Shown here piece by piece: positions 12,475 through 61,911 of a stretch of DNA of 64,000 nt. The notes under the pieces are model-generated. The model searched no databases, was not told the origin of the DNA, and saw only the letters and a program-made list of their open reading frames with translations. Position numbers and translations under genes: made by a program. This stretch comes from Cryomorphaceae bacterium (GTDB lineage Bacteria; Bacteroidota; Bacteroidia; Flavobacteriales_D; Parvicellaceae), in assembly GCA_905182525.1 (NCBI GenBank), contig CAJJBV010000005.1, positions 62,001 through 126,000 of the forward strand, in the 5' to 3' direction. Position 1 is the first letter of the stretch, and each line of letters begins with the position of its first letter.

Positions 12475-12888
12475 TTGGATATTTCATTTTATAAACAAAA
12501 TGTTTCTTTTGAGCTAAACGAATCTTCTACCCTTAAATGGGTTGTCAAAAGTATTGATTTGATGGGTTTTAAACCGGGCTGCTTGTCTTTTGTCTTTTGT
12601 GATGACAGATACATTAGAAAGATTAACAAATTATACCTTAAACACGACTACTTCACAGACGTTATTTCGTTTGACCACAGTAATGGAAAATTAATAAATG
12701 GTGATATTTTCGTGTCTATTGATACCGTTAAGAAAAATGCTTTGGAATACCATGTTACCTTTAAAGAAGAATTATTTAGGGTTATTATTCACGGTGTTCT
12801 ACATTTGTGTGGATTTAATGACGTTACAAATAAAGAAAAGTCTATTATGCGAGATAAAGAAAACAACTTGTTAAAACTAATTATTTGA
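12475..12888 (+). CDS. ybeY: Endoribonuclease YbeY, rRNA maturation factor
   Basis: 137 residues with a TTG start, 3 bp after the previous stop. The UPF0054 signature HGVLHLCGFND near residue 104 provides the zinc-binding HxxxH plus a final acidic residue where many members have His. The preceding TDVISFDH and GDIFVSIDTV segments are also characteristic. YbeY processes the 3' end of 16S rRNA and takes part in ribosome quality control. It sits immediately upstream of mnmG, another RNA-maturation gene. Confidence 0.94.
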   Translation: MDISFYKQNVSFELNESSTLKWVVKSIDLMGFKPGCLSFVFCDDRYIRKINKLYLKHDYFTDVISFDHSNGKLINGDIFVSIDTVKKNALEYHVTFKEELFRVIIHGVLHLCGFNDVTNKEKSIMRDKENNLLKLII

Positions 12889-12907
12889 TATAGAGTTGGT
12901 TACGCTC

Positions 12908-12923
12908 TGTTTCACGTGAAACA
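12908..12923. promoter_or_regulatory. parS centromere-like site (perfect 16-bp palindrome)
   Basis: TGTTTCACGTGAAACA is a perfect palindrome and identical to the widely conserved chromosomal parS consensus bound by ParB. It lies in the 37-bp gap between ybeY and mnmG and ends 2 bp before the mnmG ATG. A second, imperfect copy lies directly after the mnmG stop. parA and parB are not in this window. Binding by ParB is inferred from sequence identity alone. Confidence 0.85.
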
Positions 12924-12925
12924 AA

Positions 12926-14796
12926 ATGCTTAATAAATACGATATTATTGTTGTAGGCGCAGGTCATGCGGGAAACGAAGCTGCAGCTAGTGCAGCGAAG
13001 ATGGGTTCCAGTGTTCTTTTGATCACTATGAACATGGAAACCATTGGTCAAATGAGCTGCAACCCAGCAATTGGTGGAATAGCAAAGGGGCAAATAGTAC
13101 GCGAAATTGATGCATTGGGTGGTTCCACAGGAATAATTACAGACTTAAGCTCTATTCAATACAAGCTTTTAAACAAGTCTAAAGGTCCTGCAATGTGGAG
13201 TCCACGTGCTCAGTGTGACAGAAAACTATTTAGCAACACCTGGAGAAGATCCCTAGAGAGCATTAAAAACCTAGATTTTTGGCAAGATGTTGTCGAAGAA
13301 ATAATTGTTGATAACCACAAGGTAATTGGTGTAAAAACATCAATGGGAGTCAAAATACTGTGTAAGGCCGTGGTATTAAATAGTGGAACTTTTTTAAATG
13401 GCACTATTCATCTTGGGGAAAAAAAGTTTGGTGGTGGAAGAATGGGTGAAAAGCCAATAAAAGGAATAACAGCACAATTAGAATCGTTAGGTTTTAAGTC
13501 CGGTAGAATGAAAACAGGCACCCCGGCAAGGGTTGACGGTAGAAGTATAAACTTTTCTTTGATGGAAGAGCAGCCTGGAGATGTGAATCCTGGTAAGTTT
13601 TCGTACTTTAAAGACACCACAGCTTTAAAAAGTCAAAAAAGTTGTTTTATAACATACACAAACGAAAGAACACATGATGTTTTAAGAAGCGGGTTCAATA
13701 GAAGTCCTCTTTTTAATGGCGCTATAGACTCTGTAGGTCCAAGATATTGTCCTTCAATTGAAGATAAAATAAACAGATTTAGTCAAAGGCCAAGACACCA
13801 AATATTTGCAGAACCTGAGGGTTAGACACAATAGAATTTTATATAAACGGATTTTCTAGTAGCTTACCTGAAGATATACAACTTTTGGGGCTAAGGACTA
13901 TAAAGGGATTTGAAGATGCTAAGATGTTTAGGCCTGGGTATGCTGTAGAATATGATTACTTTCCTCCGACACAACTAAAACACACATTAGAAACTAAGAT
14001 TGTTGAAAACCTATATTTCAGTGGGCAGATAAATGGAACCACAGGTTATGAAGAAGCAGCAGGACAGGGTTTAATGGCTGGAATAAATGCACATTTAAAA
14101 ACGAACAATAAAGAGCCAGTTATCCTTGGAAGAAACGAAGCTTATATTGGGGTCTTAATTGATGATTTAATAACAAAAGGCACCAATGAGCCTTATAGAA
14201 TGTTCACTTCTAGGGCTGAATACAGAATACTATTAAGACAAGACAATGCAGATATACGGCTTTCAAAAAAAGGATTTGAGATTGGTCTATTGGAAGAGAA
14301 TAAATTTGATATGGTTGAAACCAAAAAGGAAAGAACTGAAATTTTAAAAAAATACGTAGCAAAACTATCATTGAGACCCGAAGAGGTAAACGATCTTCTT
14401 GAAAAGAAAAAAAGCGGAAAGATTAAACAAAAAGTTAAAACACCCAGTATTTTGACAAGACCTGGTATTTCTCTAAACGAAATTATTGATAGAAGCGAAA
14501 AATTGAAACACTTCATTAAAGAAAATAAAGTAGACAATAACATAATTGAACAAGTTGAAATAGACTTAAAATATAGTGGGTATATTAATAGAGAAATAGA
14601 AAATGCTGAAAAATTAAAAAAACTAGAGTACGTCAAAATACCAAATGATATAGACTATTTGAAATTTTCATCTCTTTCAACTGAAGCCAAAGAAAAACTA
14701 AACAGCATAAGGCCAATTAACATTGGACAGGCAGCAAGGATAAGTGGGATAAAACCATCTGATATATCGATTCTATTAATTTACCTAGGAAGATAA
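12926..14796 (+). CDS. mnmG: tRNA U34 carboxymethylaminomethyl synthase MnmG (one frame break)
   Basis: MnmG works with MnmE and FAD to modify the wobble uridine of several tRNAs. The N-terminal piece (12926-13825) begins with the FAD-binding [19 protein letters not shown] and contains [23 protein letters not shown]; the C-terminal piece holds [16 protein letters not shown] and the MnmE-interacting helical end. At GAGGGTTA (13817-13824) the first frame stops, and the continuation [18 protein letters not shown] resumes one base out of phase, exactly where MnmG proteins continue. One missing base, probably a G or T, explains this. The total, about 623 residues after correction, is normal for MnmG. 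I read this as a sequencing error in an otherwise intact gene. Confidence 0.93.
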
Positions 14797-14812
14797 GGTT
14801 TCACGTGGAACA
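14797..14812. promoter_or_regulatory. parS-like site, second copy
   Basis: GGTTTCACGTGGAACA starts at the base directly after the mnmG stop and matches the parS consensus at 14 of 16 positions (changes at positions 1 and 12). The inner CACGTG core and both TTNCAC/GTGNAA half-sites are kept. Together with the perfect site at 12908 it brackets mnmG at a spacing of about 1.9 kb. Confidence 0.6.
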
Positions 14813-17290: not shown

Positions 17291-18736
17291 TTACTTTATT
17301 CTTTCTTTTCTATAGGCAAGCTCCCATGCAGTTAAAAAGACATATTTAGTTACTTTTGCTAATTTAGTAAAATCTATTTTCTCGAAATCGTCTGTTGGCT
17401 TGTGATAGTCCTCATGCATACCTCCAAAATAAAAAATTACCGGTATATTGTTTTTAGCAAAATTATAATGATCTGATCTTTCATAAAATCTATTAGGGTC
17501 ATCTTTTTTATTGTAGGTATAGTCTAAATTGAAAAAAATGTTTTCATTATTAACTTCTTCACTAATCGAGTGCAACTCTTTGCTAATTCTATCAGAACCT
17601 ATGAGATAAATGTAATTATTGTTATCGTGTAGAGTGTCTTTTCTTCCGACCATATCAATGTTTAAGTCAACAACTGTTTTAGAAAGTGGGAAAATTGGAT
17701 TCTCTGTATAATATCTTGATCCGAAAAGACCTTTTTCTTCACCCGAAAAAGCTAAAAATAGTATTCCTCTTTGTGGTACAAAACCTTCATCAAATGCTAG
17801 TTTAAAAGACTTGGCGATAGACATTAGCGAGCTTGTTCCAGAGCCGTCGTCATCTGCGCCGTTACAAATTTGACCATTATCATAACCTAAATGATCATAA
17901 TGAGCCGATATTACTATTAACTCGTCTGTTTTGCCTGGTATAAAGCCCAAAACGTTTTCGGAGTATTTAGTTTTGTTAGTCTGTGTTGAAAATGATGTAG
18001 TGTTGTCACCGTCTTTTAAAACACTTAATAATGATTGGTCATCAACAATGAAAAAAGGAATGTGTGCTTTAGATTTTTGATTCCCGTGAATTTTCATGTA
18101 AGGTTTTATTATTTGATCCTTTATTCTTAAGTCCGTGTTTTTATAATTCGGCTTTTGTAATATAACAGCAAGAGCTCCTTTAGAGGAAAAATAATTAATT
18201 TTCTTTCTCCAGCTAACGGGTTTTTCATGTTTGTTAGTGTCATTAAGTAATAGCACTACTTTTCCTTTAAAATTTTCTTCTTGTGGTTTTTGAGTTAAAG
18301 AGAATACCTGCAAGACTATTTGTTTACGTAAATAAGAACAATTTACAGGCAATCCCAAAGAATAAAATTCTTCTAAGAATTTAAGTTTAGTTCCGTTAAT
18401 CGAAAGGTCTACTGACGAAAGGTCCAGTACCTGTACAGGAAATTGTTGAAAATAAGTATTCTCAAGGGTTGTTGGGCTTGAAATGTTATATTTAATAAAG
18501 TGGTCTTTGATATAGCTAGCAGCCCTTTTTTGACCTTTTGTTGTTGTTTCTCTTCCCTCAAATTCGTCTGAAGAAAGCTTTTTCAAATATACTTTAAGAT
18601 CGGAAGTGCTGATTGTGTTAGAATATAACTGTGCTGTTTTTTGGGGTGTTTGGTTTTGGATAGTTTTAGGTTTTAAGACTACACAGGATGACACAAAAGC
18701 AATTATTAATAAGTAATAATATTTACTGTTTTCCAT
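17291..18736 (-). CDS. M28-family metallopeptidase, lipoprotein
   Basis: 481 residues from the ATG at 18736, chosen because it gives a lipoprotein signal (LLIIAFVSSC, Cys18) and overlaps rpiB by only 14 bp; the frame stays open 66 bp further upstream. A protease-associated (PA) type region at roughly residues 100-230 precedes the M28 catalytic domain. Zinc ligands are visible: SAHYDHLG, NGADDDGSG, AFSGEEKGLFGS with the catalytic Glu pair, LNIDMVGR, and the final HEDYHKPTDD. It should cleave N-terminal residues from peptides at the cell surface or in the periplasm. Its specificity cannot be told. Confidence 0.92.
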   Translation of the reverse strand: MENSKYYYLLIIAFVSSCVVLKPKTIQNQTPQKTAQLYSNTISTSDLKVYLKKLSSDEFEGRETTTKGQKRAASYIKDHFIKYNISSPTTLENTYFQQFPVQVLDLSSVDLSINGTKLKFLEEFYSLGLPVNCSYLRKQIVLQVFSLTQKPQEENFKGKVVLLLNDTNKHEKPVSWRKKINYFSSKGALAVILQKPNYKNTDLRIKDQIIKPYMKIHGNQKSKAHIPFFIVDDQSLLSVLKDGDNTTSFSTQTNKTKYSENVLGFIPGKTDELIVISAHYDHLGYDNGQICNGADDDGSGTSSLMSIAKSFKLAFDEGFVPQRGILFLAFSGEEKGLFGSRYYTENPIFPLSKTVVDLNIDMVGRKDTLHDNNNYIYLIGSDRISKELHSISEEVNNENIFFNLDYTYNKKDDPNRFYERSDHYNFAKNNIPVIFYFGGMHEDYHKPTDDFEKIDFTKLAKVTKYVFLTAWELAYRKERIK

Positions 18737-19154
18737 TAATCTTTGAAATTCTTTTTTTATGCCTTCCACCTTCAAAAGGTGTATTAATAAAGGTATTAAC
18801 AATTTTTATTGCCACTGGAAAAGATATAAATCTTGCAGGAAGTGCTAATGCATTTGCATCATTATGTAGCCTTGCCATTTCTGTAATTTCATTTGTCCAA
18901 CATAAAGCACACCTTATGTCCTTGTGCTTGTTTGCAGACATTTGAATTCCATTTCCGGAACCACAAATTAGTATTATTCTATCACATTTTTTCTTCTTAT
19001 ACTCACTAACCGCTTTATGAGCATAATCTGGGTAGTCAACGCTTGAATTCGAGGATGGGCCAGAATCTATAAAGATATGCTTTGCACTAAAAGAAGAAAT
19101 AAGGTAGCTTTTAAGTTCAAAACCTGCGTGATCAGATGCTATTGATATTTTCAT
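18723..19154 (-). CDS. rpiB: Ribose-5-phosphate isomerase B
   Basis: 143 residues. Starts with SIASDHAGFELK, the RpiB/LacAB signature including the Asp-His pair, followed by DYPDYAHKA and CGSGNGIQMSANK, the phosphate-binding loop, and ARLHNDANALALPARF. It interconverts ribose 5-phosphate and ribulose 5-phosphate in the pentose phosphate pathway. First gene of the minus-strand cluster leading to gpsA; its end overlaps the M28 peptidase start by 14 bp. Confidence 0.95.
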   Translation of the reverse strand: MKISIASDHAGFELKSYLISSFSAKHIFIDSGPSSNSSVDYPDYAHKAVSEYKKKKCDRIILICGSGNGIQMSANKHKDIRCALCWTNEITEMARLHNDANALALPARFISFPVAIKIVNTFINTPFEGGRHKKRISKINGKQ

Positions 19155-19454
19155 GTTATAAACTTGTTGGTTATATTGTTATAATTTTATTTGCTTTTGT
19201 AAGTAAGTTGTTTGATATAAAAAATAGTTTATTTATATGCTTTTAAAGAATAAAGAAATAAAGAATTAATTAAAAGGTTACCAACTAAACAAAGGCATCA
19301 TTTTTGATTTTTTATTAACTAATAAATTAATATTGTTTTATAAATATATTTTTAATAACTCATTAAATAGTTGATTTTAAATGTTTTATTTTAAATTCTT
19401 TTGTTGATCGAATGTTAATAAAACTTTTATTTGTAATAAAATTATAAAAACTCA
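19155..19454. other. AT-rich intergenic region between divergent genes
   Basis: Three hundred bases without a credible gene, separating rpiB (minus) from the MORN-type repeat gene (plus). It is extremely AT-rich with several short A and T runs and should hold promoters in both directions. One Bacteroidota-type promoter candidate is listed separately. I see no RNA gene or long hairpin. Confidence 0.6.
19404..19433 (+). promoter_or_regulatory. Candidate Bacteroidota-type promoter
   Basis: A TTG at 19404-19406 is followed after 19 bp by TTTATTTG (19426-19433), one mismatch from the TAnnTTTG -7 element of Bacteroidota primary sigma promoters. The spacing is right, and the MORN-type gene begins 21 bp downstream. 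Such AT-rich matches arise by chance, so this is tentative. Confidence 0.35.
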
Positions 19455-20978: not shown

Positions 20979-21674
20979 TTGGGTAATATCTATATAATAC
21001 CAACACCAATAGGTAACCTAGGTGATATAACCTATAGATCTAAGGAAACGCTAGAAAAAGTAAATAAAATATTCGCTGAGGACACTAGAATAACAAAAAA
21101 ACTTTTGATAAAATATAATATTATTAATAGTATTTCACCTTATCATCAACATAACGAGCATCAAGTTGTAGATTTAATAATTAAAGAGATTAAAGAAAAA
21201 GATATTGACATTGCTCTCGTTTCTGATGCAGGTACACCAGGAATAAGTGACCCAGGATTTTTATTAGTAAACAAAGCAAAAGAAAACAATATACCTGTTT
21301 TTTGTTTGCCTGGTCCCACTTCTATAATTCCAGCTTTAGTACAGTCGGGATTTGCAACAGATGAGTTTAGTTTTTTTGGTTTTTTACCACATAAAAAAGG
21401 AAGAAAAATAAAACTAAAAAAAATATTAAATATTTCTCATACTATTGTTTTGTTTGAATCTCCACATAGGCTTCTTAAACTATTAAACGAAATAAAGTTA
21501 GAGATACTAGATACCAGACAAATTAGTATTTCTAGAGAAATAACAAAAATATACGAAGAAAATATAAGAGGAACTGCAGAAGAGTTAATTTTACATTTTG
21601 AAAAAAACAAAGTAAAAGGAGAAATAGTATTGTTAATAGATAAAATACCCAAGAAAAAAAATGCAAGAATATGA
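20979..21674 (+). CDS. rsmI: 16S rRNA (cytidine1402-2'-O)-methyltransferase
   Basis: 231 residues with a TTG start. The N-terminus [14 protein letters not shown], then [25 protein letters not shown] and [11 protein letters not shown] are the tetrapyrrole-methylase-fold motifs of RsmI, with SAM-binding Gly-rich loops. It methylates the ribose of C1402 in the ribosomal decoding centre. The protein is shorter than E. coli RsmI, which has an extra C-terminal domain; lengths near 225-235 are normal in Bacteroidota. The 3' end overlaps leuS by 14 bp. Confidence 0.95.
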
Positions 21675-24598
21675 TCCTCAAATAATTGAAAGAAAGTGGC
21701 AAAAATATTGGTTTGAAAATAAAACTTTTGCTGCAAAAGACAAAACAAACAAACCCAAGTTTTATGTTTTAGATATGTTTCCTTATCCCTCTGGTGCTGG
21801 ATTGCACGTGGGACACCCTCTAGGCTACATAGCTTCCGATGTTTACGCTAGATATAAAAGACTGTTAGGTTTTAATGTTTTACACCCGATGGGATATGAT
21901 TCTTTTGGTTTGCCGGCAGAACAATACGCTATTCAAACTGGCCAACATCCAGCTGTTACAACAAAAACAAACATAGATGGAGGAAACGACATTGAAGGAA
22001 ACGTAATTTTAGGCTACAGAAAACAACTAGATAAACTTGGATTTTCTTATGATTGGGATAGAGAAATAAGGACATCTTCGCCTGAATATTACAAATGGAC
22101 ACAATGGATTTTCAAACAAATATTTAACTCTTGGTATAATAAAGAAACAAAAAAAGCTGAAAAAATAGAGACCTTAGTGTTGAAGTTTGAAAAAAAAGGA
22201 AACAAAGGCGTTAATGCCAGCACAAACAATAAAGTTATTTTTTCTTCATCAGAATGGAATAGCTGGAGTCAAGAAAAAAAAGAAAAAACACTTTTAAAAT
22301 ATAGGCTTACTTACCTTTCTGATAGCTATGGTAAACTGGTGTCCAGAGCTTGGAACAGTCTTAGCAAATGACGAGATTAAAAATGGATTTTCAGAAAGAG
22401 GAGGATTTCCGGTTGAGCAAAAAAAAATGAGACAGTGGAGCATGAGGATAACAGCATATGCTGAACGGCTAATAAAAGATCTAGATAAATTAGACTGGTC
22501 CGAATCGATAAAAGAAACACAAAAAAACTGGATAGGCAAATCAAAAGGAGCGACAATTAACTTTCAAATACCAGGACTAGAAAATAAAATTGAAGTATTT
22601 ACAACAAGACCGGAAACTATATTTGGGGTTTCATTTATAGTGCTTTCTCCAGAACATAAACTATTAAAAAAGGTAACCACAAATAAACAAAAACAAAAAA
22701 TAGAGGAGTATATAGCTAAAGCATCATTAAGATCAGAAAGAGAAAGAACAAGCGAAGTAAAACAGGTGACAGGAGAGTTTACAGGTGCTTACGCAATTCA
22801 CCCTTTTACAAAAAAGAAACTTCCTATTTGGACAGCAGACTATGTTCTTTCTTCTTATGGGTCAGGAGCCATTATGTCTGTTCCTTGCGGGGACCAAAGA
22901 GACTGGCTATTTGCAACAAAGTTTAAGATTACCATTATCAACATCTTTAAAGACAAGGACATCTCTAAAAGTGCATATACAAACAAGGATGCAATTTTAA
23001 ATAATTCAGACTTTTTAAACGGAATAACAACAAAAAAAGCAGAGCAATTAGCGATAAAAGAGCTAGCAAAAAACAACTATGCAGAGCCAAAAACACAGTA
23101 TAAATTAAGAGATGCTGTTTTTTCTCGACAAAGATATTGGGGAGAACCCTTTCCTGTTTATTATAAAGGTACTTTACCATACTTATTAAAGAACGATAAA
23201 GTTGTTGAGCTACCCAAAATCGATAATTACTTACCCACTAATGATGGAGAGCCACCATTAGCAAGAGTAAGCAAAGAAGAATGGAAAACAGATTTTTCTG
23301 GAGACAGAATGGAAGCGAACACCATGCCTGGCTGGGCAGGAAGTAGCTGGTATTTTTTGCGTTACATAGACCCCTTAAACACCAAAGAGTTCGTCTCCAA
23401 AGAGAAATTAAATTATTGGAAAAATGTAGACTTGTATGTTGGCGGAGCAGAGCACGCAACAGGACATCTTTTATATTCTCGGTTCTGGACAAAAATTTTA
23501 TATGACCTTAAGTATATTCCCTTTGAAGAGCCCTTTAAAAAAATGATCAACCAAGGAATGATACAAGGTAACTCTAGATTTGTTTACAAGCTAAAAAATG
23601 AATCGAGTAGTATTACAAAAAAACACACCATTTATTTTTCCAAAAATATAGTTGAGGATATAAACCACAGGAACAGCTTTTCGATAAATGAATTTAAAGA
23701 AAAATTAATAAACACAACCCTATATAAAGCTGATGCACAACTTTTAAAAAAACTACATACTCAACTTGAAAAACACGTTTTTAAAACACATGTAGATATT
23801 AATCTAGTAGAAGGGTATGAGCTAGACATTAAAGCGTTTAAAAAGTCTAGAAAAGAATACAATAATGCAGAGTTTGTTTTAGAAAACGAAAAATTTAAAT
23901 GCTCTGGGGCGGTAGAAAAAATGTCAAAGTCATATTATAATGTTCAAAACCCCGACACCTTAGTTGAAAAATACGGGGCAGACACCTTAAGGTGTTATGA
24001 AATGTTTTTGGGGCCGCTAGAACAACATAAACCATGGGACACCAAAGGAATAACCGGCGTTTATAGTTTTTTAAAAAAGTTTTGGAAACTTTTTCATAAG
24101 GAAGGAAAATTTAATGTTTCAAAGGGGTCTCCAACCCCCCAAGAACTCAAGACTATACACAAAACCATAAAAAAAACGAAAGAAGATATAGACAGGTTTT
24201 CTTTCAACACACCCGTTTCAAGCTTTATGATATGTGTAAACGAACTAACATCATTAAGCTGTAACAATACAGAAATACTTTCTTTACTGTGTATTATTTT
24301 ATCTCCCTACGCCCCACACGTGACAGAAGAAATGTGGAGTAAAATGGGAAACAAAAATAGTATTTCTCTTGCGGAATTTCCAGAATATAAAAATGAATAT
24401 ATTTTAGAAAACAAATTCAAGTACCCAATCTCATTTAATGGAAAAATGAAATTTTTATTAGAACTTCCCAAAACACTCTCAATTAGTGACATTGAAAAAG
24501 AAGTGCTTAACAACACAAAAACAATTAAATTATTACAAGGAAAACCACACAAAAAAGTAATAGTAGTTCCTAATAAGATAGTAAATATTGTTATTTAG
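21661..24598 (+). CDS. leuS: Leucine-tRNA ligase (one frame break)
   Basis: Class I synthetase charging tRNA-Leu, about 978 residues once corrected. HIGH-type motif in [13 protein letters not shown], the [14 protein letters not shown] block, KMSKS in [14 protein letters not shown] and [17 protein letters not shown]. The editing (CP1) domain lies at about residues 240-420. The frame breaks at 22330: the first frame reads on into nonsense, whereas dropping one G of TATGG gives [15 protein letters not shown], the expected continuation. The total length is one base over a multiple of three, consistent with a single inserted base in the consensus. Overlaps rsmI at its start and the convergent lspA by 8 bp at its end. 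Confidence 0.95.
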
Positions 24599-25256: not shown

Positions 25257-25637
25257 TCAGTTTTCAGCTTTTTTAGCTTCTATACTTAGCGTTGTGTGAG
25301 GGACAAGCTTAAGACGATCTTTACTTATAAGCTTACCGGTTTTTCTACAAATCCCATAAGTTTTATTTTTTATTCTAATAAGTGCATGCTCTAAGTTGGT
25401 AATGAACTTTTCTGTCCGGGAGGCAAGTTGAGCATTTTCCTCTCTCATTAATGTTTCTGCCCCATCTTCCATCATGTTAAAGGACCTCCCTGTATCATTT
25501 GTGCCGTGGTCATCTTTATGTGAAAGGGACCCTTTTAAAATTTCAAGAGCCTCTTTTGCTTCTTCAAGCTTTTGCGCAATTATAGTTCGAAACTCTTCAA
25601 GTTCAGTGTCTCCGTACCTGTTTTTTTCATTATTCAT
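25257..25637 (-). CDS. DksA/TraR-family protein with degenerate zinc finger
   Basis: 126 residues. An N-terminal helical hairpin (about 10-90) is followed by a short finger region YGICRKTGKLISKDRLK. Only one Cys remains, where canonical DksA zinc fingers have four, so zinc binding is doubtful. The end RLKLVPHTTLSIEAKK is typical of the family. DksA-like proteins enter the RNA polymerase secondary channel, sometimes with ppGpp. Order ileS - this gene - lspA matches what I know in Bacteroidota; ileS overlaps its start by 8 bp. Confidence 0.88.
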   Translation of the reverse strand: MNNEKNRYGDTELEEFRTIIAQKLEEAKEALEILKGSLSHKDDHGTNDTGRSFNMMEDGAETLMREENAQLASRTEKFITNLEHALIRIKNKTYGICRKTGKLISKDRLKLVPHTTLSIEAKKAEN

Positions 25638-28600
25638 AATGATGTGTATTTATTTTTTCAATGGAATATTTAAATTCTTTACCACCTTTTAAAATACTGG
25701 AATCTTCAAATTTATCAACGAAGATTAAGTTTTTTGTCAATGTTTCGGAGCAAATATAATTTAAATTGTTATTAAAAGCTTCTTGGGTTTGCTTATCGGA
25801 AAAGATTTTGATTTTAATAAAGTCTGTAACCTCAAGCATCATTTCTTTTCTCTCGTTTTGAATTAGACTAACAAAGTCCCTTGAAAGCCCCTCTTCCATA
25901 AGCCTCTTACTTATAGAGACATCCAGAGCAACAGTGATATTTCCAGAATTAGCGATTTCCCACCCGGGCACTTCTTCGGTTAAAATCTCAACATCTTCGT
26001 TTAAAAGTATTACAACCCCATCATTTAAAAGAACTTCTTTTTGACCAGTCTTTTCAAAAAGCACAATATCCTCATTGCTCCAATCACCAATAATAGAAGC
26101 AATGTCTTTCATGTTTTTGCCTTGTTTTGGGCCTAAAATTTTAAAATTTGCTTTAGCTTTCTTTTTTAATAAAGAATCGCTAGAAGAAATAAATTCAATG
26201 GCCTTTATGTTAACTTCCGAAACAATAATTGACTCAACCTCTTTTACGGCGCTATCAAACTCTTTACCAATAGATGGAATTAAAACTCTTTGTAGAGGCT
26301 GCCTAACTTTTATTTTAGTTTTTTTACGAAGGCTTAATATTAAAGAAGAGATTTTTTGGGCAAGAGCCATTTTATACTCTAGACTGCTACTTATAAGGCT
26401 ATCATTATGTTCTGGGAAAAGAGACAAATGAACAGAGTCTTCAGCAGAACACAGGTCCTCATAAAGCATGTCGCTATAAAAAGGCGCTACAGGAGACATC
26501 ATTATGCTGATTTCTTTTAAGCAAATAAAAAGAGTGTCGTAAGCAGCTTTCTTCTCCTCGTTAAAGACCCCTTTCCAAAAACGTTTTCTACAAAGACGCA
26601 CATACCAGTTGCTAAGATCATTTATTACAAAAGATTGTATTTCTCTTGCTGCTTTTGTGGGCTCATAATCATTATAGTCTCTTTCTACATCTTTAATAAG
26701 TGAATTTAACCTGGAAAGAATCCAAGAGTCAAGCTCAGTAAGTTTTGTGGAAGTTTTATTTTTATCGTATTTGTAGCTGTCAAGATTAGCATAAAGCGCA
26801 AAGAAATTATAGGTGTTAAAAAGGGTTCCAAAAAATTTTCTTCTAACCTCGTTTATACCTTCAAAATCAAATTTTAAGTTGTCCCACGGCTGAGCATTTG
26901 ATATCATATACCACCTAGTTGCATCGGCACCATATTCCTTTAAAGTTTCAAATGGATCTACAGAATTCCCAAGGCGCTTAGACATTTTTTGACCAGACTT
27001 ATCTAAAACAAGCCCATTGGAAATAACATTTTTATAAGCAACAGAACCAGTGATCATTGTAGATATCGCATGTAAAGTATAAAACCAACCTCGGGTTTGG
27101 TCAACACCTTCTGCAATAAAATCAGCCGGAAACGCTTTTTTTTCATCAATCATCTCCTTATTTTCAAAAGGGTAGTGCCACTGAGCGAATGGCATAGACC
27201 CAGAATCAAACCAAACATCTATAAGATCTTTCTCCCTGTAAAGAGGGGTTCCATTTTTTGAGGATAGAACAATTTTGTCTACAAAGCTTTTGTGTAAATC
27301 AAAAAAAGAATAATTTTCTTTACTATAGTTGTTGTCTTGAAAATTTTCTAAAGGATTTACTTTCATGTGCCCCATTTTAATAGAAAATGCAATTTCTTTT
27401 TTTAATTCCTCGACTGAACCAATACACACAACATCCGCACTATCTTCACTTCTCCATATTGGAATAGGAATTCCCCAAAACCTAGACCTAGAAAGGTTCC
27501 AGTCGTTCGCGTTTTCTAGCCAATTTCCAAACCTTCCAGTTCCTGTGGACGTAGGCTTCCAATTAATATTTTTATTCAATTCCACCATGTTTTTTTTAAA
27601 AGCGGAAACTTTCACAAACCAAGAATCAAGGGGATAATATAAAACGGGCTTATCTGTTCTCCAACAATGTGGGTAACTGTGCTCGTATTTCTCAACTTTA
27701 AAAGCTTTATTTTCTTCTTTTAGGATTATTGCAATCTCCACGTCTAAAGGCTTTCTTTTAGGGTCTGCACTTTCGTAATATGCTTCTTTAACAAACTTAC
27801 CACTGAGAACTACCTAAACCATCGACAAAAGCACCTTTAAGGTTTACTAAAGGAACTAATTCACCTGTTGAATTTTTAATAAGCATTGGAGGAACACCAG
27901 CATTAATAGCGACCTTTGCATCATCCGCTCCAAAGGTAGGTGCGATATGAACAATTCCAGTGCCCTCTTCCACGGAAACAAATTCTCCATGAATTACTCT
28001 AAAAGCCTTTTCTGGAAATTCGGCAGGCTGCACCAGGGGCATTAATTGGTGGTAAAATAGCCCAACCAATACTTTTCCTTTAACTTTTTTGATAACCTCG
28101 TATGATATTTGCTTTTCTTTATCTTTCAGGTCCTCAAAAGCAACATATGGCGAAGAAAACACTTTTTTTAAAAGCTTTTCAGCCGTAACAACTACAACCT
28201 CTTCGCCAGTATACTGATTATGGGTTTTAACAACAACATAGTCCACGTTATTATTTACCGCTAAAGCAGTGTTAGAAGGCAACGTCCAAGGGGTTGTTGT
28301 CCAAGCCAATAGATAAACATTTTCTTTGACCCCGAAGACTGAGGCATTATTATTTTTAATTCTAAACTGAGCAGTAATTGAAGTGTCTTTTACATTCTTG
28401 TAACACCCAGGTTGATTGATTTCATGAGAACTAAGACCGGTTCCTGCCATAGGTGAGTAGGGTTGAACAGAATAGCCTTTATAAATCAAACCCTTGTCAA
28501 AAGCCTGCTTAAGTATCCACCAAACCGACTCCATGTATTTGTTTTCATAAGTAACGTAAGGATCCTCAGTATCTACCCAATACCCCATTTTTGAAGTTAG

Positions 28601-29002
28601 ATCGTTCCAAACATTAGTATATTTCATTACAGCTTTTTTACAAGCGGCATTATAGTCTTCAATGCTAATTTTGACACCAATATCCTCCTTTGTTATTCCA
28701 AGTTCTTTTTCAACACCTAGTTCAACGGGCAAACCATGAGTGTCCCACCCAGCCTTTCTATTAACCTGAAAACCCTGAAGGGTTTTGAATCGACAAAAAA
28801 CATCTTTTATAGTTCTTCCCATCACATGGTGAATACCAGGAAGGCCATTGGAAGAAGGGGGTCCTTCAAAAAAAACAAAAGGCTTGTTGCCCTCCCTGTT
28901 ACTAAGACTTTCTTTAAAAGTATTATTTTTCTTCCATTTTTCGAGAACAGAATCTGCAATTTCAGAAAGATTTAGCTCTTTTCTTTGTTTAAATAAACTC
29001 AT
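25630..29002 (-). CDS. ileS: Isoleucine-tRNA ligase (one frame break)
   Basis: Class I synthetase for isoleucine, about 1123 residues once corrected. The N-terminal piece holds EGPPSSNGLPGIHHVMGRT (HIGH motif). The C-terminal piece holds SGQKMSKRLGNSVDP (KMSKS) and GADATRWYMI. Between them, at about 27804-27811, the first frame runs GLGSSQW and stops, while the other frame gives SGKFVKEAYYESADP, the expected sequence after GLGxF. The total is one base over a multiple of three, so one inserted base explains it. The overlap of 8 bp with the DksA-like gene suggests co-transcription with it and lspA. Confidence 0.95.
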
Positions 29003-31559: not shown

Positions 31560-31889
31560 ATGCTTAGAAAAAAACAAATACTTTCAAATAAAAAAGATAT
31601 TTCAAAATTATTTTCAAAAGGCTTTAAAAGTTCATGTTTCCCAATAGTTATGTTTTCGATGCCCTTTGAGAAGGATCAAGTTTTATTTTCAGTTTCTAAA
31701 AAGAATATTTCAAAAGCGTCAGAAAGAAACAAAATTAAAAGGCAAATGAAGGCAATATATTTCAATAACTTGGAGTTGTTTTTAAATGAACAACCAAAAG
31801 CAACAGCCCTTACCTATGTTTCCAAAACAAAATCAAGTTTTATTGAAATAAACAAAAGTATGAAAGAACTTTTTAATCTTAAAACATGA
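31560..31889 (+). CDS. rnpA: Ribonuclease P protein component
   Basis: 109 residues, basic. SKKNISKASERNKIKRQMK contains the RNR-type motif that contacts the P RNA. It assists the catalytic RNA in maturing tRNA 5' ends. Here rnpA is not next to rpmH but between hemD and the S41 peptidase, the usual Bacteroidota arrangement. Its stop overlaps the peptidase start by 4 bp. Confidence 0.94.
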   Translation: MLRKKQILSNKKDISKLFSKGFKSSCFPIVMFSMPFEKDQVLFSVSKKNISKASERNKIKRQMKAIYFNNLELFLNEQPKATALTYVSKTKSSFIEINKSMKELFNLKT

Positions 31890-35631: not shown

Positions 35632-35743
35632 ATTAATAATTCTAAAATACAATACAAAGATAAAACTAGAGTAACAGTGATTGGTTAATAATTATAATTA
35701 ATATCGTACAAAAATTAGTAAACCTCTATTAATTTTGAGTAAG

Positions 35744-36746
35744 ATGAAAAAAATAGCGGTAATTGAAGGCGGATACAGTCTTGAAAAAGCAGTTTCCTTA
35801 AAAAGTTCAAATACGATTTTTGAGAATTTAGACCGGTCTAAATTTATTCCTACAAAAGTTTTAATTGATAAAAAGGAGTGGGTTGCTTACGACAATGATG
35901 GCAAGTACTTTATCGATAAAAACGATTTTAGCTATACTAAAAACGGTATAAAACACAATTTTGATTTTGCTTTTATCATAATTCATGGCAGCCCTGGGGA
36001 AGATGGCAAACTACAAGGTTATTTTGAGATGATTGGCATTCCCCACAGCACTTCATCCTCTTCTGTTACATCGCTTACTTTCCAAAAATTTCATTGTAAT
36101 CAGTTTTTAAAAAATTTCGGTGTTAACGTTGCTGAAGCGTTATTATTTAGGCTAGAGGACAAAATTGATGAAACAGATATTTTAAATAAAATAGGCTTAC
36201 CCTGCTTTGTTAAGCCTACAAATGCGGGAAGTAGCTATGGAATAACCAAAGTAAAAAGTTTAAAAGAATTAACTCCAGCAATTAAATATGCTTTTTCATA
36301 CGGAAATGAAGTAATTATTGAAGCCAATATTAAAGGTAGAGAAGTTACCAACGGAATCTTACAGAAACAAAGAGGGGCTAAAAACACTTCCAATTACAGA
36401 AATAATTTCCGAAAACGAATACTTTGATTACGAAGCTAAATATAATGGAAAATCCAAAGAAATAACACCTGCAGATTTTAGCAAAGAACATACTCAAAAA
36501 ATTAAATCTTTAACCTCCTTTATTTATAAAACTTTAGGAATGAATGGTCTAGCTAGGATGGATTATATCATTAACGAAAACAACATACCTTTTTTAATAG
36601 AAATAAACTCTGTCCCTGGAATGAGTAAAGAAAGTATAATCCCTCAAATGATAAAAGAGGATAATAAACTGATTAAAGATGTATTGTCAGATATCATCAA
36701 TTTAAAAAAGCAAAAAAGATTGATCATTTTTAAGACCGCTTTTTAA
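35744..36746 (+). CDS. ddl: D-alanine-D-alanine ligase (one frame break)
   Basis: ATP-grasp enzyme joining two D-Ala for peptidoglycan. ATG at 35744 gives KKIAVIEGGYSLEKAVS, an N-terminal loop similar to EHxVS of other Ddl proteins; then HGSPGEDGKLQGYFEM and CFVKPTNAGSSYGI. Around 36362 one extra base shifts the frame: dropping it joins GREVTNGIL to RNKEGLKTLPITEI. The rest holds GLARMDYIIN and FLIEINSVPGMSKESIIPQM, the metal-binding end. The locus is one base over a multiple of three. About 333 residues when corrected. The 3' end overlaps the convergent broken membrane gene by 17 bp. Confidence 0.93.
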
Positions 36747-43272: not shown

Positions 43273-46200
43273 ATGCTCATACAAATGAAAGTAAACGCAA
43301 TTATTATAATTCTAAGTCTATTTTTTTTAAAAATAACAGCTCAAAATCCCGGAGATACTACTATAATTGAAACCTTAGACTTTAATGATATTACCAAACG
43401 AAGAGGGTGGTATATTTTCCCTTCCGACACTAACAAATACCATAAAGTTTTAATGTATTATACCTTAAAATGTGATAATGCCACTACCCAAGACAACTAT
43501 CCCTGCGGAGAGTGGGATTACACTACTTATACAAGGCTTTACAACCATCAAAATGTAAATAGCCCGTATTACTATTATCGAAATTCAACACCAGAAATTA
43601 TTCAATATAACAATAGCCCTAAGTTCGATATTCAACAAAACTTATCTTATAATTTATTGCATGATTCTACAATCGTTGAAAACAGCTTTGATATTGGTTC
43701 TGGAACATTAAATACCACAGAGCTTTTTAACACAGTTAATAAATCTGAAAAAGTACAATACTTAATTACTGCTACAGAACTTCAAAATCAGGGTTTAATA
43801 GCTGGGGATATTTCAAAACTATCCCTTGACATTCAAAACCAAGGAGAAATCCTAAAAAGCGTAATTATCAAAATGAAATTAACTACATTATCAGAGTTAA
43901 CAGACTCTACTTTTGAGTATGACAATTTCACTTTAGTTTATAATAATTCGTTAGCTCAACAACCCTTAGGGATTACAACATATAACTTTTTACAGCCTTT
44001 TTCGTGGGACGGAACAAGTAATATTGTTTTAGACTTTATTTTTTCATCTAACTCAGGAAACACCAATTATACTATTGCTTCAGACAATTTAGCTAGTAAT
44101 ATTGGCATTATTCAACCATTTAACGGCCACTTAGACTTTAAGGATGATGATATTGTAGATATTCCTTCTTCAGTTTTTTCAGAAATAGATAGCGCAATAA
44201 CCATTTCGTTCTGGTCTTTCGGAGATGAGAATTTAATGCCTTTTAATTCCTATATTTTTGAAGGAAGAGACACCAACGGATACCGTGTAGTTAACTGCCA
44301 TCTTCCTTGGAGTAACAGTAGAGTGTATTGGGATGCTGGTAATAATGCAACAAACTCTTACGACAGAATTAATGAAATAGCAAGTTTAAGCGATTTTTCT
44401 GGAAAGTGGAATCACTGGGCATTTACAAAGGATATAGGCAGTGGAGAAATGAAAGCTTTTTTAAATGGGAGTCTATTTATGAGCGGAAACTCTAAGACAA
44501 AGTCAATGGCAGGAATTAAGAAGTTTAGAATAGGTGGAAATGCGGCAGCTAACTTTAACGGTGTTTATGATGGGAAAATAGATGAATTTAGAGTATGGAA
44601 CAAAGCACTGGATTCCAACACTATTAAGTTATGGATGAACAAAACAGTTGATAATAATCATCCATTTTATAATCACCTGCAAGCCGCTTATAATTTTGAC
44701 GAAGATAATGGAGTTCTTGCCCATGATTATAGCAACAACTTAAGGCACGGAACATTATTAGGACTCCCTAAATGGGAAAACTCCGACTTATCACTTCGTG
44801 ACTTTAACCTTTTAACAACTACTAATCGACCAAAATTCACTTTTTATAAGGGCACATATATTAGCAGCTTAGACTCGGCAATAGTCCTAGACACTTCTTA
44901 TTACCCACCTATTTCTATTATAAAAACAATACCCTATATTAATCTTAATGTTAGTGGAATTTCAAAAAATATTATTGATACTATCTATGGATTTGAAAGC
45001 GGATGGGGCTATACTTACAACCATTTGGGACTAAAAATAGATTCTTTAGATTTTGGAGTTAACCAACAAATAAATAACCCATATAAGCAAGATATTCATC
45101 AAATTCAAAATTACGTTACACCATATGGCATAGGGCTAAGTTTAGGTCAATCTGGGTTTAGGTGGGTTTATGATGTTACAGATTATTTACCATTATTTAA
45201 CGATACCATAGAAATTTCCGCAGGCAACCAACAAGAGTTAATAGATTTAAAATTTTTATTTATTCACGGAACACCATCAAGAGAGGTAATAGATTTTAAA
45301 ACCATTTGGAGAGGAGATTATAGTCATGGAAATATAGCCAACGATATTTCATTACCCTGCTGTAAATATTCCTTTAAACCCAATCGCTAGTAGTTTTAAG
45401 GCCAAAACAAGGACAACAGGCCATTCATTTGGAGGATTTCAAAATTGTGCTGAGTTTTGTCCAAAGCTTCACCATTTAAAAGTAAACGGAGTTAAGCATT
45501 TTGAGTGGCTCAACTGGAAAGAATGTTCGGATAACCCTGTAATTGCTCAGGGAGGGACATGGCTCTATGATAGAGCAGGTTGGTGCCCAGGAACTTTTGG
45601 AACTACTTATGATCATGAAATTACTCCATTCATTGGTTCTGGCGATACATCTGTAAACATTGACTATGGAATGGAAATTACAACGGCGGGAATGGAAGGA
45701 AATTATCGAACTACTGTTCAGTTAGTATCTTACGGAGATCATAATTTTCAAAATGATGCAGGAATAACAGATGTATTGGCACCTAATAAATGGGAATTTC
45801 ACAATAGGATAAACCCTATATGTGACCAACCAAAAATACTATTAAAAAATTATGGTGAGCAGGATTTATTAAGTGTAGAATTAGATTATTGGATTTGTGG
45901 TGGGGTTCACGAAACCTTTACTTGGAATGGACAATTAGAGTTTGAACAAGAACTTGAAATTGAATTGCCTATTGCAAGCCAATCTTTTTGGGACCATGCC
46001 CAATTTTGTAAGGATTTTCACGTGAAAATTATGCGAACAAATGGAACAAATGATGAATATCCAGAAAATAACCACTACCAAACAACTTTTGAAACACCCC
46101 CAGTTTACCCTGAAAACTTAGTACTTTGGACAAGGACTAATGCAGTAGGAAGCGATACTAAACTATTTGTAAAAGATGTAAATGGAAATATTATTTTTTC

Positions 46201-50851: not shown

Positions 50852-53800
50852 TTACTCTTTAATAATTCTAGTTGTGTATGAGTTATCTTTAGCTGTTAGT
50901 TCTAGTATATAAACACCATCTGCAAATGATTTAAGGCTTATTTCTTTTTCATTGGTGGTGATTATCTTTCTTCCAAATAAGTCGTAAACATTGGTGGTGA
51001 TTAGTCCGCTATAGTTTCCAGTACTAATTGTTACCATATCACTAGTTGGATTTGGATAAATAGAAACACTATTATTCCATTTCTCAATTCCAGTTGTATT
51101 TACAAATTCCACTACAAAATTAGTAGTGTCACCGTAACAACCTGTTAAATCCGTAGCGATTACCCAATAAGTTCCGTTTGTACTTGGTGTAATCCTCGCT
51201 GTTATATCTCCCGTACTCCATAGATAAGTATATGGGGCTGAACCATTAACAGCAGAAGCTTCTATGTCATTTCCATTTTGAACAATCGTAGTTACTATAG
51301 GATTAATTGTAAGATTTAATGTGACAATACTATCACAGCCTGAAGCGCTAGAAAGTATAAAGGTTGCAGTATCATTACTTAAGCTATATATTATTCCATC
51401 AATCCATATAAAATCACAAGCAGCTTGCTGAACATCTATTCCGGTTATTGCAGAGTCAACAGTCAAAGTAGTGGTAACAATACTATCACAGCCACTATTA
51501 GTAGAATAAACATCGTTATAACTTCCACTAGCTGTTTGATAAGCTCCACCTAGAAACAAACTATCTCCTTGACATATGTTAGCTAGAAACACTGTCTGTA
51601 ATTGAAAGATTAATAGATAAAACCGTATTCACTAAACTATCACAGCCACTATTAGTAGCATAAACATCGTCATAACTCCCAGCTACTGTTTGATAAGCCC
51701 CACCTAGGAACAAACTATCTCCTTGACATATACTAGCTGTTACACTGTTAGTTATTAATGAGTCTACTGTGAAGTTTGTAATAGTAATACTATCACAGCC
51801 AGCTACACTGACTGTAGTGTCATAGAAAGTGCCACTTGCTAATTCATAATTACCATTGATTAATGCACTATCGCCATAACATATATTTACATTAAGATTT
51901 GCAACAATCTGCGAAGAGACGGTTAAATCTGTTTCAATAATTAAGTTACATCCATTAGCATCTACCAAAGTGTCATAATATAGTCCAGTTGTAGTTTGGT
52001 ATAAGCCACCAGCTAAAACACTATCTCCATTACATATGGCAAAGAGGTTAGAAACAAAGTTTTCGCTAAGGACATGTAAAAGTTGTTTCTATTATACTGT
52101 CACATCCATTAACATTGGTTAAGCTATCAATATAAACTCCGCTAATAGTTCTGTAAGCACCTGCAATAAAGCTGCTGTCTCCATAACAAACAGTAATAGT
52201 ATCGGCTAAATAATTTATATCATTTACTGTTAATATCGTAGTAAGAATACTATCACAACCTAGGGTTGTTGAAAGCGTATCTACATAACTTCCAGCTGCT
52301 GTTTGATAAGCTCCACCTAACATCATACTGTCTCCTTGACATATACTAGCTGTTACACTATTGGTAACTACAGGATTAACTATCAATGTGGTGGTAAGAA
52401 TACTATCACAACCTAGGGTTGTTGAAAGCGTATCAAGATAATCTCCAGCCGTTGTTTGATAAGCCCCACCTAACATCATACTGTCTCCTTGACATATACT
52501 AGCTGTTAAATTATTAGTAACTACAGGACTAACGTTTCAAGTCGTAGTAAGAATACTATCACAACCATTAGCTGACAGAAAGCGTATCTACATAACTTCC
52601 AGCTACTGTTTGATAAGCTCCACCTAGCATAACATACTATCTCCTTGACATATACTAGCTGTTATACTATTTGTTATTAATGAGTCTACTATAAAGTTGG
52701 TAATGGTAATACTATCACAACCAAGTACACTTGTTGCAGTGTCATAAAAAGTTCCATTAGCTAGTTCATAATTACCATTAATTAATGCGCTATCGCCATA
52801 ACACACGCTTAATGGTAGATTAACCGTAATCTGTGAAGAAACAGTTAAAACAGTTTCAGTTACACTATCACAACCAGTCATAGAAGAAAGCGAATCATAG
52901 AAAGTTCCACTTGCTAATTGGTAAGCACCACCAGCTAAAACACTGTCTCCAGTACATAAGCTAATATTTATAATGTTGTAGTAATTAGAGTTTACAGTTA
53001 CATTAACAGAGCCCAAAGCGATACAACCATTAGCATCTGTTCCAGTAACTGTGTAAGTAGTTGTTGTAGTTGGTGTGAAAGCAGTTCCATCAGTAACACT
53101 ATTATCCCAAGCATAAGTTGTTGCTCCAGATCCTGAAAGTGTTACAGCACCACCATCACAAACAGCTTGGTCAGCTCCAGCTGAAACCGTTGGTAAAGCA
53201 TTTACAGTAACATCTACTTGATCTGTTCCTATACAACCATTTCCATCTGTTCCAGTAACTGTGTAAGTTGCAGTTGCAGTTGGCGTGAAAGTAGCTCCGT
53301 CAGTAACACTATTATCCCAAGCATAAGTAGATGCTCCAGAACCTGAAAGTGTTACAGCACCACCATCACAAACAGCTTGATCAGCACCAGCTGATACTGT
53401 TGGTAAAGTATTTACAGTAACATCTACATTGTCTGTTCCTATACAGCCATTTCCATCTGTTCCAGTAACTGTGTAAGTAGCAGTTGCAGTTGGGGTGAAA
53501 GCAGTTCCATCAGTAATACTCATTATCCCAAGAATAAGTAGATGCTCCAGATCCTGAAAGTGTTACAGCACCACCATCACAAACAGCTTGATCAGCTCCA
53601 GCTGAAACCGTTGGCAATGCATTTACTGTTAAGTCTCCTGTAGCAGATGCACTTTGACATCTATTAGCATCAGTTACTACTACTGAATAATTACCAGCTG
53701 TAGTTCCAGTTGTAGTTGCATTAGTTCCTGTTCCTTGACCGCTCCATAACCAACTAGTTGCAGTAGAGCTTGTAGCTGTAAATGTAGCAGCAGCATCTCC

Positions 53801-56800
53801 AGTACATATCGTAGCATCATTTACCGTTACCGTTGGTAATGCGTTAATTGTTACCAAAACTTGATCAGTTCCAATACAACCATTAGCATCTGTTCCAGTA
53901 ACAGTGTAAGTAGTAGTTGCAGTTGGGCTGAAAGTAGAACCGTCAGTAACTGCATTATCCCAAGCATAAGTAGTTGCTCCAGAACCTGAAAGCGTTACAG
54001 CACCACCATCACAAACAGCTTGATCAGCTCCAGCTGATACTGTTGGTAAAGTATTTACAGTAACATCTACTTGATCAGTATTAGAACAACCATTTCCATC
54101 TGTTCCAGTAACTGTGTAAGTAGTAGTTGCAGTTGGCGTGAAAGTAGCTCCGTCAGTAATACTATTATCCCAAGCATAAGTAGATGCTCCAGAACCTGAA
54201 AGCGTTACAGCACCTCCATCACAAACAGTTAGATCAGCTCCAGCTGATACCGTTGGTAAAGTATTTACAGTAACATCACTTGATCAGTATTAGAACAACC
54301 ATTTCCATCTGTTCCAGTAACTGTGTAAGTAGTAGTTGCAGTTGGCGTGAAAGTAGCTCCGTCAGTAACTACATTATCCCAAGCATAAGTAGATGCTCCA
54401 GAACCTGAAAGTGTTACAGCACCACCATCACAAACAGCTTGATCAGCACCAGCTGATACTGTTGGTAAAGTATTTACAGTAACATCTACTTGATCTGTTC
54501 CAGTACAACCATTTCCGTCTGTTCCAGTAACTGTGTAAGTAGTAGTTGCAGTTGGGATAAAAGAAGATTCGTTAGTTACACTATTATTCCATGTAAATGT
54601 AATTGGCACTTCGCTACATAAAGGATATGGACATCCGGATGAAGTTACAGTATATTGATCAGGGCTTTCTACATCACAATCTTCACCTCCTTCAGTCCAA
54701 GTACCGTCTGCATTTCTGTAAGCCCATGAATCTTCATAAGGATCCCCAGGCATTGCAGATGCGTTAACATCACCATAATTGTCAATGACAACTCCATTTA
54801 AAAATAATTCCATGGGATCATCCCCATTCATAGTCAAAACAGAATTTGCAGTAGCATCATTAAATGTCTGTTCAAAATTTGACCAACAAGATCCAAAATA
54901 ATTAGAAAAAAAGTTTGGATCTGTACCAATTCTATAGACTAAAATATCATCTCCAGCACTTGCAGAACTTCCAATTGGAAAACTCCACTCTACACCGTCT
55001 GAACCACCACCATTATTTGAATTATTAAAACCATATATACTTAGGTCAGCAATGTCTTCATTTGCAACTAAATGAATTGCTTTACCGTCATTTGAAGATG
55101 ATGGTGCGTTTAAATCCATTATTCCTTTAATTGATAAAGCATTACTAAAAAGTGTAGATTTTCCAGTTAATGTGACGGTGTCGCCAGAACAAACAGCTTG
55201 ATCTGCTCCAGCATCTACGGTAGGTAAAGCATTAACAGTTAAGTTTCCAGTAGCAGCAGCACTTGAACATGTTCCATCAGTTACTACTACTGTATAATTC
55301 CTGCAGCTGTGTTCCTGTTGTAGTTTGGCTAGTTCCCTGTTCCATTGTACACTCCAAACCATACTGTTGCTGTAGCACTCGTAGCTGTAAATGTTGCTGC
55401 AGATCTCCAGCACATATAGTGGCATCATTTACCGTTACCGTTGGTAATGCATTTACTGTACAACAACTTGATCAGTTCCTGTACAACCATTTCCATCTGT
55501 TCCAGTAACTGTGTAAGTAGCAGTTGCAGTTGGGGTGAAAGCAGTTACGTTGTACACTATTATCCCAAGCATAAGTAGATGCTCCAGATCCTGAAAGTGT
55601 TACAGCACCTCCATCACAAACAGCTGGTCAGCTCCAGCTGAAACCGTTGGCAAAGCATTTACTGTTACCAAAACTTGATCAGTTCCAATACAACCATTTC
55701 CATCTGTTCCAGTAACTGTGTAAGTCGCAGTGTAGTTGGTGTGAAAGTAGTTCCGTTCATTACACTCATTATCCAAGCTAAGAGTTGCTCCAGATCCTGA
55801 AAGCGTTACAGCACCACCATCACAAACAGTATCAGCCCAGCTGATACTGTTGGCAAAGTATTTACAGTAACATCAACTTGATCTGTTGCAGTACAACCAT
55901 TTGCATCTGTTCCAGTAACTGTGTAAGTTGCAGTTGCAGTTGGTGTGAAAGCAGTTCCGTCAGTAACACCATTGTCCCAAGCATAAGTAGATGCTCCAGA
56001 TCCTGAAAGTGTTACAGCATCGTCCATCACAAACAGCTTGATCAGCTCCAGCTGTAACGTTGGCAATGCATTAACAGTTAAGTTTCCACTAGCTGACGCA
56101 CTTTGACATCCATTGGCATCTGTTACCACTACAGAATATGCTCCAGTAGTTGCTCCAGTTGTAGTTGCACTAGTTCCTGTTCCTTGACCGCTCCATAACC
56201 AACTAGTTGCAGTAGAGCTTGTAGCTGTAAAAGTAGCAGCAGCATCTCCAGTACATATAACGGCATCATTTACCGTTACCGTTGGTAATGCGTTAATTGT
56301 TACCAAAACTTGATCAGTTCCCGTACAACCATTTCCATCTGTTCCAATAACTGTGTAAGTTGCAGTTGGTGTGAAAGACCGAACAGCCCTTACATAACCT
56401 AAAACCCAATTTTTATTCGTAGCATAACTGAATCCATTAATAAAATTTATACGGTATGCATTTGAACTGTTAGTTTCTGACGAACTCCAATAATTATTAT
56501 TTCCAATATTAAGTAATCCCGTACCCTTATTATCATACATTTTTTGTAGTTCATCCTTACTAGGTAAATACCAATCATCATAAGTAACACCTCCTTCATT
56601 AACACTGTAATCTGAGCATATACCTGCAGCATAACTATAACTTCCTGGATTACCACCTTGACTGGCAATAATTGCATTGGTATTGGAAAGACCTGTCCCT
56701 AGATCTGTTGCATTTGCACCAGTCGTTATGTAACTACCATTATACCACTGAAGACCTGTGCTTTGGTCCGAATTAGCTGCAATTAACCCTTTAAATTCTG

Positions 56801-59676: not shown

Positions 59677-60131
59677 TATTTACCTGGAATAAATTTTAAA
59701 GAAACTGAGTTCACACAGTGTCTGGTATTTTTAGAAGTTAATTGTTCACCAAGAAAAACATGACCTAAATGACCCCCACACTCTTTACATAAGATTTCTG
59801 TTCTTCTGCCATCAGCATCAGTAATTTTTTCTACGGCATTGTCAATTTCATCATCAAAGCTAGGCCAACCACAATTCGATTTAAATTTATCATTTGATTT
59901 GTATAAGGGAGTTTCACACCTTCTACAAACGTAAACTCCTGTTTCATAATGGTTGTTATATTCTCCGGAAAATGGATACTCTGTTCCTTTATTAACAATT
60001 ATTCTTTCTTCTTCGGTTGTAAGAGAATTGTATTTTTTATCACTCATTTTTGGGCTATTTTTTTCAGTTTGACAAGAAACCACATTACAGAGTATAATTA
60101 ATACCGTAGTAATAAGTAGGTTTTTTTTCAT
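59676..60131 (-). CDS. msrB: Peptide-methionine (R)-S-oxide reductase, lipoprotein form
   Basis: 151 residues. The signal [16 protein letters not shown] ends in a lipobox Cys near residue 20, so it should sit in the envelope. The MsrB domain shows [49 protein letters not shown] (the other zinc Cys pair) and the catalytic Cys in [11 protein letters not shown]. It repairs methionine-R-sulfoxide in proteins. Its start overlaps the pterin dehydratase stop (ATGA). Confidence 0.96.
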
Positions 60132-60412: not shown

Positions 60413-60414
60413 AT

Positions 60415-61782: not shown

Positions 61783-61911
61783 TATTTATTAATTTTAATA
61801 TTCATAAGATAGATATTATTGTGACTTAACATTAATAATTTATAGAATTTAATTAATCTTATTATAACTTCATTGAATATATGCTTTGAATAAAAAATTA
61901 TTATTTCAAAA

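Follow-up and report, generated by a model that had tools for sequence, protein, structure and literature searches.

parS sites are the DNA handles that ParB grips to pull sister chromosomes apart. The window, i.e., the whole stretch of 64,000 nucleotides analysed here, carries a palindrome just ahead of mnmG which an earlier note had read as such a site. Two questions follow: whether the palindrome belongs to the chromosome's segregation system, and whether it marks the vicinity of the replication origin. The features needed to address them are the following.

12475-12888, + strand: ybeY (PF02130, 102 bits).
12908-12923, no strand assigned: parS 1, perfect palindrome TGTTTCACGTGAAACA, with the same placement in same-family loci.
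12926-14796, + strand: mnmG (gidA), in two ORFs (12926-13825 and 13885-14796), its reading frame being broken.
14797-14812, no strand assigned: parS 2, GGTTTCACGTGGAACA, whose first base directly follows the mnmG stop codon.
18723-19154, - strand: rpiB (PF02502), whose homologue in the relative G106 adjoins the GC-skew switch (by synteny and per-gene skew).
19155-19454, no strand assigned: intergenic stretch of 84% A+T, a weak oriC candidate on synteny only.
31560-31889, + strand: rnpA (PF00825), a member of the classical origin gene group according to the part of PMC2099444 consulted.

The 16-mer TGTTTCACGTGAAACA was found at 12908-12923 as claimed, with two bases (AA) between it and the ATG at 12926, and the Pfam matches of both flanking genes confirm its placement between ybeY and mnmG. 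The mnmG/GidA assignment is given by PF01134 (371 bits), which is present in both ORFs, together with PF13932 and PF21680 in the second; the stop codon occupies 14794-14796. When compared with the parS consensus TGTTNCACGTGAAACA, a 16-bp palindrome, parS 1 is perfect and parS 2, a site the earlier note had missed, presents one deviation, departing from TGTTYCACGTGRAACA at the outermost base. The claim that such a sequence is improbable by chance also held: Markov models of order 0-3, trained on the window, yield 0.000006-0.00002 expected perfect copies of TGTTTCACGTGAAACA for 64 kb and 0.0002-0.0008 for the whole 2.19 Mb, or some 0.0005 per genome. Given the window contains eight perfect 16-bp palindromes of any sequence, which are hence not rare, what is improbable is the exact sequence rather than the palindromy. 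One of the other palindromes, ATTTTCACGTGAAAAT at 46014-46029, is perfect and has the parS core without the outer G and C; it lies within an ORF.

Scanning the genome with up to two mismatches, as the earlier note had proposed, did not turn up many scattered copies. Three sites were found: parS 1, parS 2 and a poor match, TTTTTCACATGAAACA, on contig C4. Allowing three mismatches raises the count to 17, against 12 when the pattern is read backwards, which indicates that the three-mismatch sites are mostly due to chance. The sites are thus few and clustered, as for chromosomal parS, with parS 1 and parS 2 lying 1.9 kb apart. In a tally of 190 sites, parS variation falls mainly at positions 1/16 and 5/12, although only words scoring at least 14/16 enter this tally and its conservation is therefore partly built in. 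On sequence grounds, TGTTTCACGTGAAACA is in all likelihood a true parS site.

The genome also supports the claim that the organism uses ParABS, as it has one parA-parB operon and the parB gene whose absence would have spoken against it. A single ParB match over the family cut-off was found in the genome's contigs (C1:272283, 168 bits), and it lies directly behind parA on contig C1. ParA contains the AAA_31 domain, and ParB contains ParB_N, HTH_ParB and ParB_C and aligns over approximately 200 residues to solved ParB/Spo0J chains (Bacillus Spo0J). Read via the Spo0J alignment, ParB keeps the recognition-helix Arg and the SMGH-motif Gly equivalent to R173 and G201, which the part of PMC7383237 consulted describes as absolutely conserved in ParB; the contacts G170 and S172, conserved according to the same part, correspond to Ser and Asn here. 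A ParA and a ParB with parS-type recognition residues, by this equivalence, are hence both present. A Noc-binding site (NBS) was ruled out, given the core here is CACGTG, unlike that of the Noc site, and ParB has Arg and Gly at the specificity positions. At these positions Noc reads the NBS with Gln and Arg, as stated in that portion of PMC7383237.

The single dnaA is on contig C1, as is parAB, i.e., on a contig other than the window's (C5). The distance to the nearer contig end is 75 kb for the window's site and 223 kb for parB; hence, if both are on one chromosome, parS and parB are at least about 0.3 Mb apart.

The broken reading frame of mnmG may reflect the quality of the assembly. The gene's open frame is 301 aa long here. 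Among the 24 other same-family matches, 22 have frames of 623-639 aa, and the two shorter ones (498 and 343 aa) are both at contig ends. Besides mnmG at 12926-14796, whose split into two ORFs was tested with Pfam, inspection of the ORF list by eye showed leuS, ileS and a D-Ala-D-Ala ligase-like gene (21661-24598, 25630-29002 and 35735-36746) in two ORFs each. With so many housekeeping genes broken, base-level errors of the assembly seem likelier than decay. Also by eye, the long frames of 50852-58938 contain repeated Ig/PKD-like units and, at the C-terminus, a stretch like a type IX secretion sorting domain.

The placement of the sites was then compared among relatives, using a threshold of 13/16 for same-family loci and 14/16 for the phylum-wide and named loci. 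Within the order, TGTTYCACGTGRAACA occurs in 143 of 199 genomes (own included), with one to three copies each, and the reversed pattern in 2 of 199. When the search started from the parS side, mnmG was within about 0.85 kb of the site in all 30 loci fetched. For the same family, 14 of 39 genomes yielded no mnmG match at the cut-off and were left out. The remaining 25 loci include the own one; a site is present in 24 of them and occupies both flanks in 17. The eight loci without this pairing comprise three that contig ends truncate, four with a single occupied flank and L105, which lacks any site. For the class and phylum, 69 of 137 mnmG places were considered, comprising 29 of the 30 fetched automatically (own locus omitted) and 40 chosen at one to three per family. 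No more than 600 bp from mnmG, 63 of these 69 have a parS and none has the reversed motif; the site is upstream in 49 and downstream in 42. Six loci miss it (L135, L152, L193, L212, L215 and L216); in L212 and L215 a site falls within the final 40 bp of the mnmG reading frame.

Among the named loci, 64 of 80 have parS within the same 600 bp of mnmG, against 1 of 80 for the control. If only Bacteroidota-titled records are counted, the value is 62 of 76, the other 14 being without a recognisable site beside mnmG, two of which have it inside the gene. The misses include Blattabacterium (L287), Capnocytophaga (L304) and L244, L246, L257, L260 and L289, the last five presumably being Saprospiraceae or related records. 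None of these five has a parS near mnmG; the L260 record ends inside the gene. Four Bacteroidales (L300, L305, L306 and L311) have the site inside mnmG at an identical offset of 1577. Arrays of parS-like sites were observed around mnmG in a Flavobacterium (13 sites, L283) and in a Terrimonas (9 sites, L278). The compared genomes are not phylogenetically independent. In most of the phylum as sampled, the probable centromere goes with mnmG, with parAB and dnaA elsewhere, and this merits a proper survey. No description of parS beside mnmG/gidA, or in Flavobacterium or Bacteroidota, was found in open-licence titles and abstracts; Livny et al. 2007, reportedly the main survey of parS, may report parts of it.

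This conservation rules out a chance match. The shortness of the motif is all that speaks for one, while 0.0005 copies are expected per genome and the same placement recurs in relatives, so the probability we assign to coincidence is practically nil.

The placement also bears on whether the palindrome is an operator or RNA element for mnmG expression which merely resembles parS. The palindrome does end two nucleotides ahead of the ATG, and its distance upstream is 2-20 nt in many relatives. However, sites are not confined to the promoter side of mnmG, as those downstream are nearly as frequent as those upstream (42 versus 49 of the 69 loci), and the four Bacteroidales carry theirs inside the gene at one fixed offset. 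Furthermore, the sequence equals the parS consensus, and parB is present in all 26 single-contig genomes. RNA fold prediction over 12880-12960 does not pair the palindrome with itself, but with upstream bases (z -1.8; 10 of 200 shuffles fold equally well). The suggested effect on mnmG translation or transcription thus finds no support: given sites occur on either side of the gene or inside it, and no self-paired hairpin is predicted, control of mnmG by the palindrome is unlikely, and we regard an operator that only looks like parS as a very improbable explanation.

In the 26 single-contig Bacteroidota genomes, which include three of one genus (g35) and four of one family (f26), and for which ten chromosome lengths are rounded, allowing one mismatch gave 62 sites. 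Of these, 56 are within 15 kb of mnmG, and for 45 of them the distance is at most 1.9 kb. The other six, spread over five genomes, are at chance level, since the reversed pattern equally yields six matches in the same genomes. Two genomes (G200 and G328) have no site with at most one mismatch near mnmG, and two-mismatch sites are found there 12-55 bp upstream. In none of the 26 is the best parB match nearer than about 300 kb, the smallest distance being 299.5 kb (G200). A second, weaker ParB-family gene over the cut-off was observed 284 kb away in G330 (C1, 1872270-1872755). The median parB distance is 29% of the chromosome, which resembles random placement (KS p 0.23). The distance between dnaA and parS is 1.75-1.88 Mb in G106, G130 and G109, and 0.45 Mb in G002.

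We therefore favour, with a probability of roughly 0.88, the reading that the two palindromes on either side of mnmG serve the chromosome as parS (centromere) sites, which ParB would bind and on which segregation would act.

Whether these sites also mark the origin was addressed with GC skew, sampled in 20-kb stretches, and with dnaA. Bacteroidetes origins are commonly far from dnaA, according to the part of PMC4755523 consulted. In gut bacteria including Bacteroides caecimuris, the origin was placed through parS clusters and GC skew, with support from read coverage, as given in an excerpt of PMC10197239. Among the relatives, the skew origin is at or near the mnmG-parS region in four, and a fifth, G228, is compatible, though less closely. 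In G106, the per-gene table puts the negative-to-positive turn of the third-codon-position skew at 11-12 kb from parS; in G130, parS at 4.12 Mb falls inside the switch interval of 4.07-4.19 Mb; in G201, parS is at 3.37 Mb and the switch between 3.34 and 0.45 Mb. G002, a single-contig genome of the same family, switches between 3.9 Mb and the start of its 3.98-Mb contig, with parS at 15-17 kb, so that no more than roughly 0.1 Mb separates mnmG-parS from the skew origin. In G228, the switch is between 2.35 and 3.3 Mb, with skew near zero at 2.75 Mb and parS at 2.28-2.30 Mb.

Set against GC skew and dnaA, as the earlier note had called for, parS is at or near the skew origin in four relatives; the window's own dnaA is on another contig. 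Clusters of DnaA boxes (four in 500 bp) were found neither in the window, nor in the other C5 stretches examined, nor around parS in G106 and G002. In G106, an AT-rich intergenic stretch (C1, 1757319-1757956, in L108) lies at the skew switch beside the rpiB homologue; it holds six DnaA near-boxes, against 1.4 in shuffles, and is a candidate oriC. Its counterparts in the window's genome and in G002 present no excess, the window's stretch at 19155-19454 having one near-box against a shuffle mean of 0.66.

For the window's own genome, third-position skews were separated from the coding-strand component. Contig C5 presents an AT3 change point at about 13.4 kb of the window, with none of 500 permutations as strong, and a GC3 change point at about 22 kb (p 0.044). 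The + strand is G/T-rich on the left and C/A-rich on the right, a sign opposite to that of G106, G130 and G002, and the one usual for a terminus. The claim that the window lies near the origin thus has support in relatives; in the own genome, there is a break near parS, but of the opposite sign. We infer origin proximity there from the relatives only. No rRNA genes, which would serve for replichore orientation, were found on C5 outside 60001-62000 and 186001-188845. A symmetric inversion about the origin was rejected as a cause of the opposite skew by reasoning, since it would keep the sign.

The site could then be parS with the mnmG region nonetheless at the replication terminus in this genome, as the terminus sign of both the AT3 and the GC3 break on C5 would have it. 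Yet in G002 mnmG-parS is roughly 0.1 Mb from the skew origin, with G106 and G130 in agreement, and parS at the terminus would clash with ParABS. C5 genes point outward in 85 of 147 cases, as for an origin, although this is a weak reason given G106 (180 of 345) and G002 (147 of 291) show almost no bias. We consider a terminal location doubtful. A strand bias that flipped in this lineage is preferred, because the same-family single-contig genome has parS close to its origin and, to a lesser degree, because of the outward genes.

The loading of ParB, the sliding of its CTP clamp and the pulling by ParA are established for ParABS. For the centromere sites proposed here, a ParB dimer from the C1 parA-parB operon would load onto parS 1 and parS 2, close as a CTP-bound clamp and slide over mnmG and its neighbours. 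Nucleoid ParA would then pull the ParB-parS complex, separating the newly copied origin regions. As to history, the parS sites would have been inherited along with mnmG, an old origin-linked gene, and in Bacteroidota parAB would have moved away while the sites stayed. In Duganella (L313), a member of the Betaproteobacteria, mnmG is preceded by two parS, at distances of 95 and 145 bp, and rsmG, parA and parB come after it. Given this row of parS-parS-mnmG-rsmG-parA-parB, which is one outgroup locus, the simplest inference is that parS beside mnmG may be the older arrangement, which parAB left in Bacteroidota. Other loci titled outside Bacteroidota are L310 and L315, without a site, and L296 (Fibrimonas), with one.

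A further reading, which we hold tentatively and at well below even odds, is that the Bacteroidota centromere is tied to mnmG itself and not just to the origin region: the sites shift between its 5' side, its 3' side and its interior but seldom depart from it, while parAB and dnaA roam, ParB loading may be coupled to mnmG or its transcription, and the strand bias of the window's lineage has flipped.

parS 1 itself is an ordinary parS; the interesting part is the phylum-wide tie to mnmG with parAB elsewhere. Given dnaA is a poor origin marker in Bacteroidota, as the parts of PMC4755523 and PMC10197239 consulted indicate, a rule that reads parS at mnmG as the centromere and as the side of the origin would make it possible to locate origins in draft genomes from this phylum, a major one in the gut and the sea. 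The arrangement would also offer a natural case in which the centromere is at its old address and the machinery genes are gone, making testable why parS and parAB are usually linked.

In comparison with known systems, the window has two members of the classical origin gene group (PMC2099444, in the part consulted), mnmG (gidA) and rnpA, 17 kb apart; unlike in that group, dnaA and parAB are on another contig. The parS cluster of Bacteroides caecimuris, studied with Hi-C, is alike in that parS and GC skew mark the origin in a member of Bacteroidetes, which is not systematically tied to dnaA there; the text compared from PMC10197239 does not name the gene neighbouring parS. Duganella differs from the tested Bacteroidota in having parAB directly after mnmG-rsmG. 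With the chromosomal parS of Bacillus, Caulobacter and Pseudomonas, the window's genome shares an identical 16-bp palindrome and the presence of ParA and ParB, whereas the Bacteroidota tested have their sites crowded around mnmG, with no best parB match nearer than about 300 kb.
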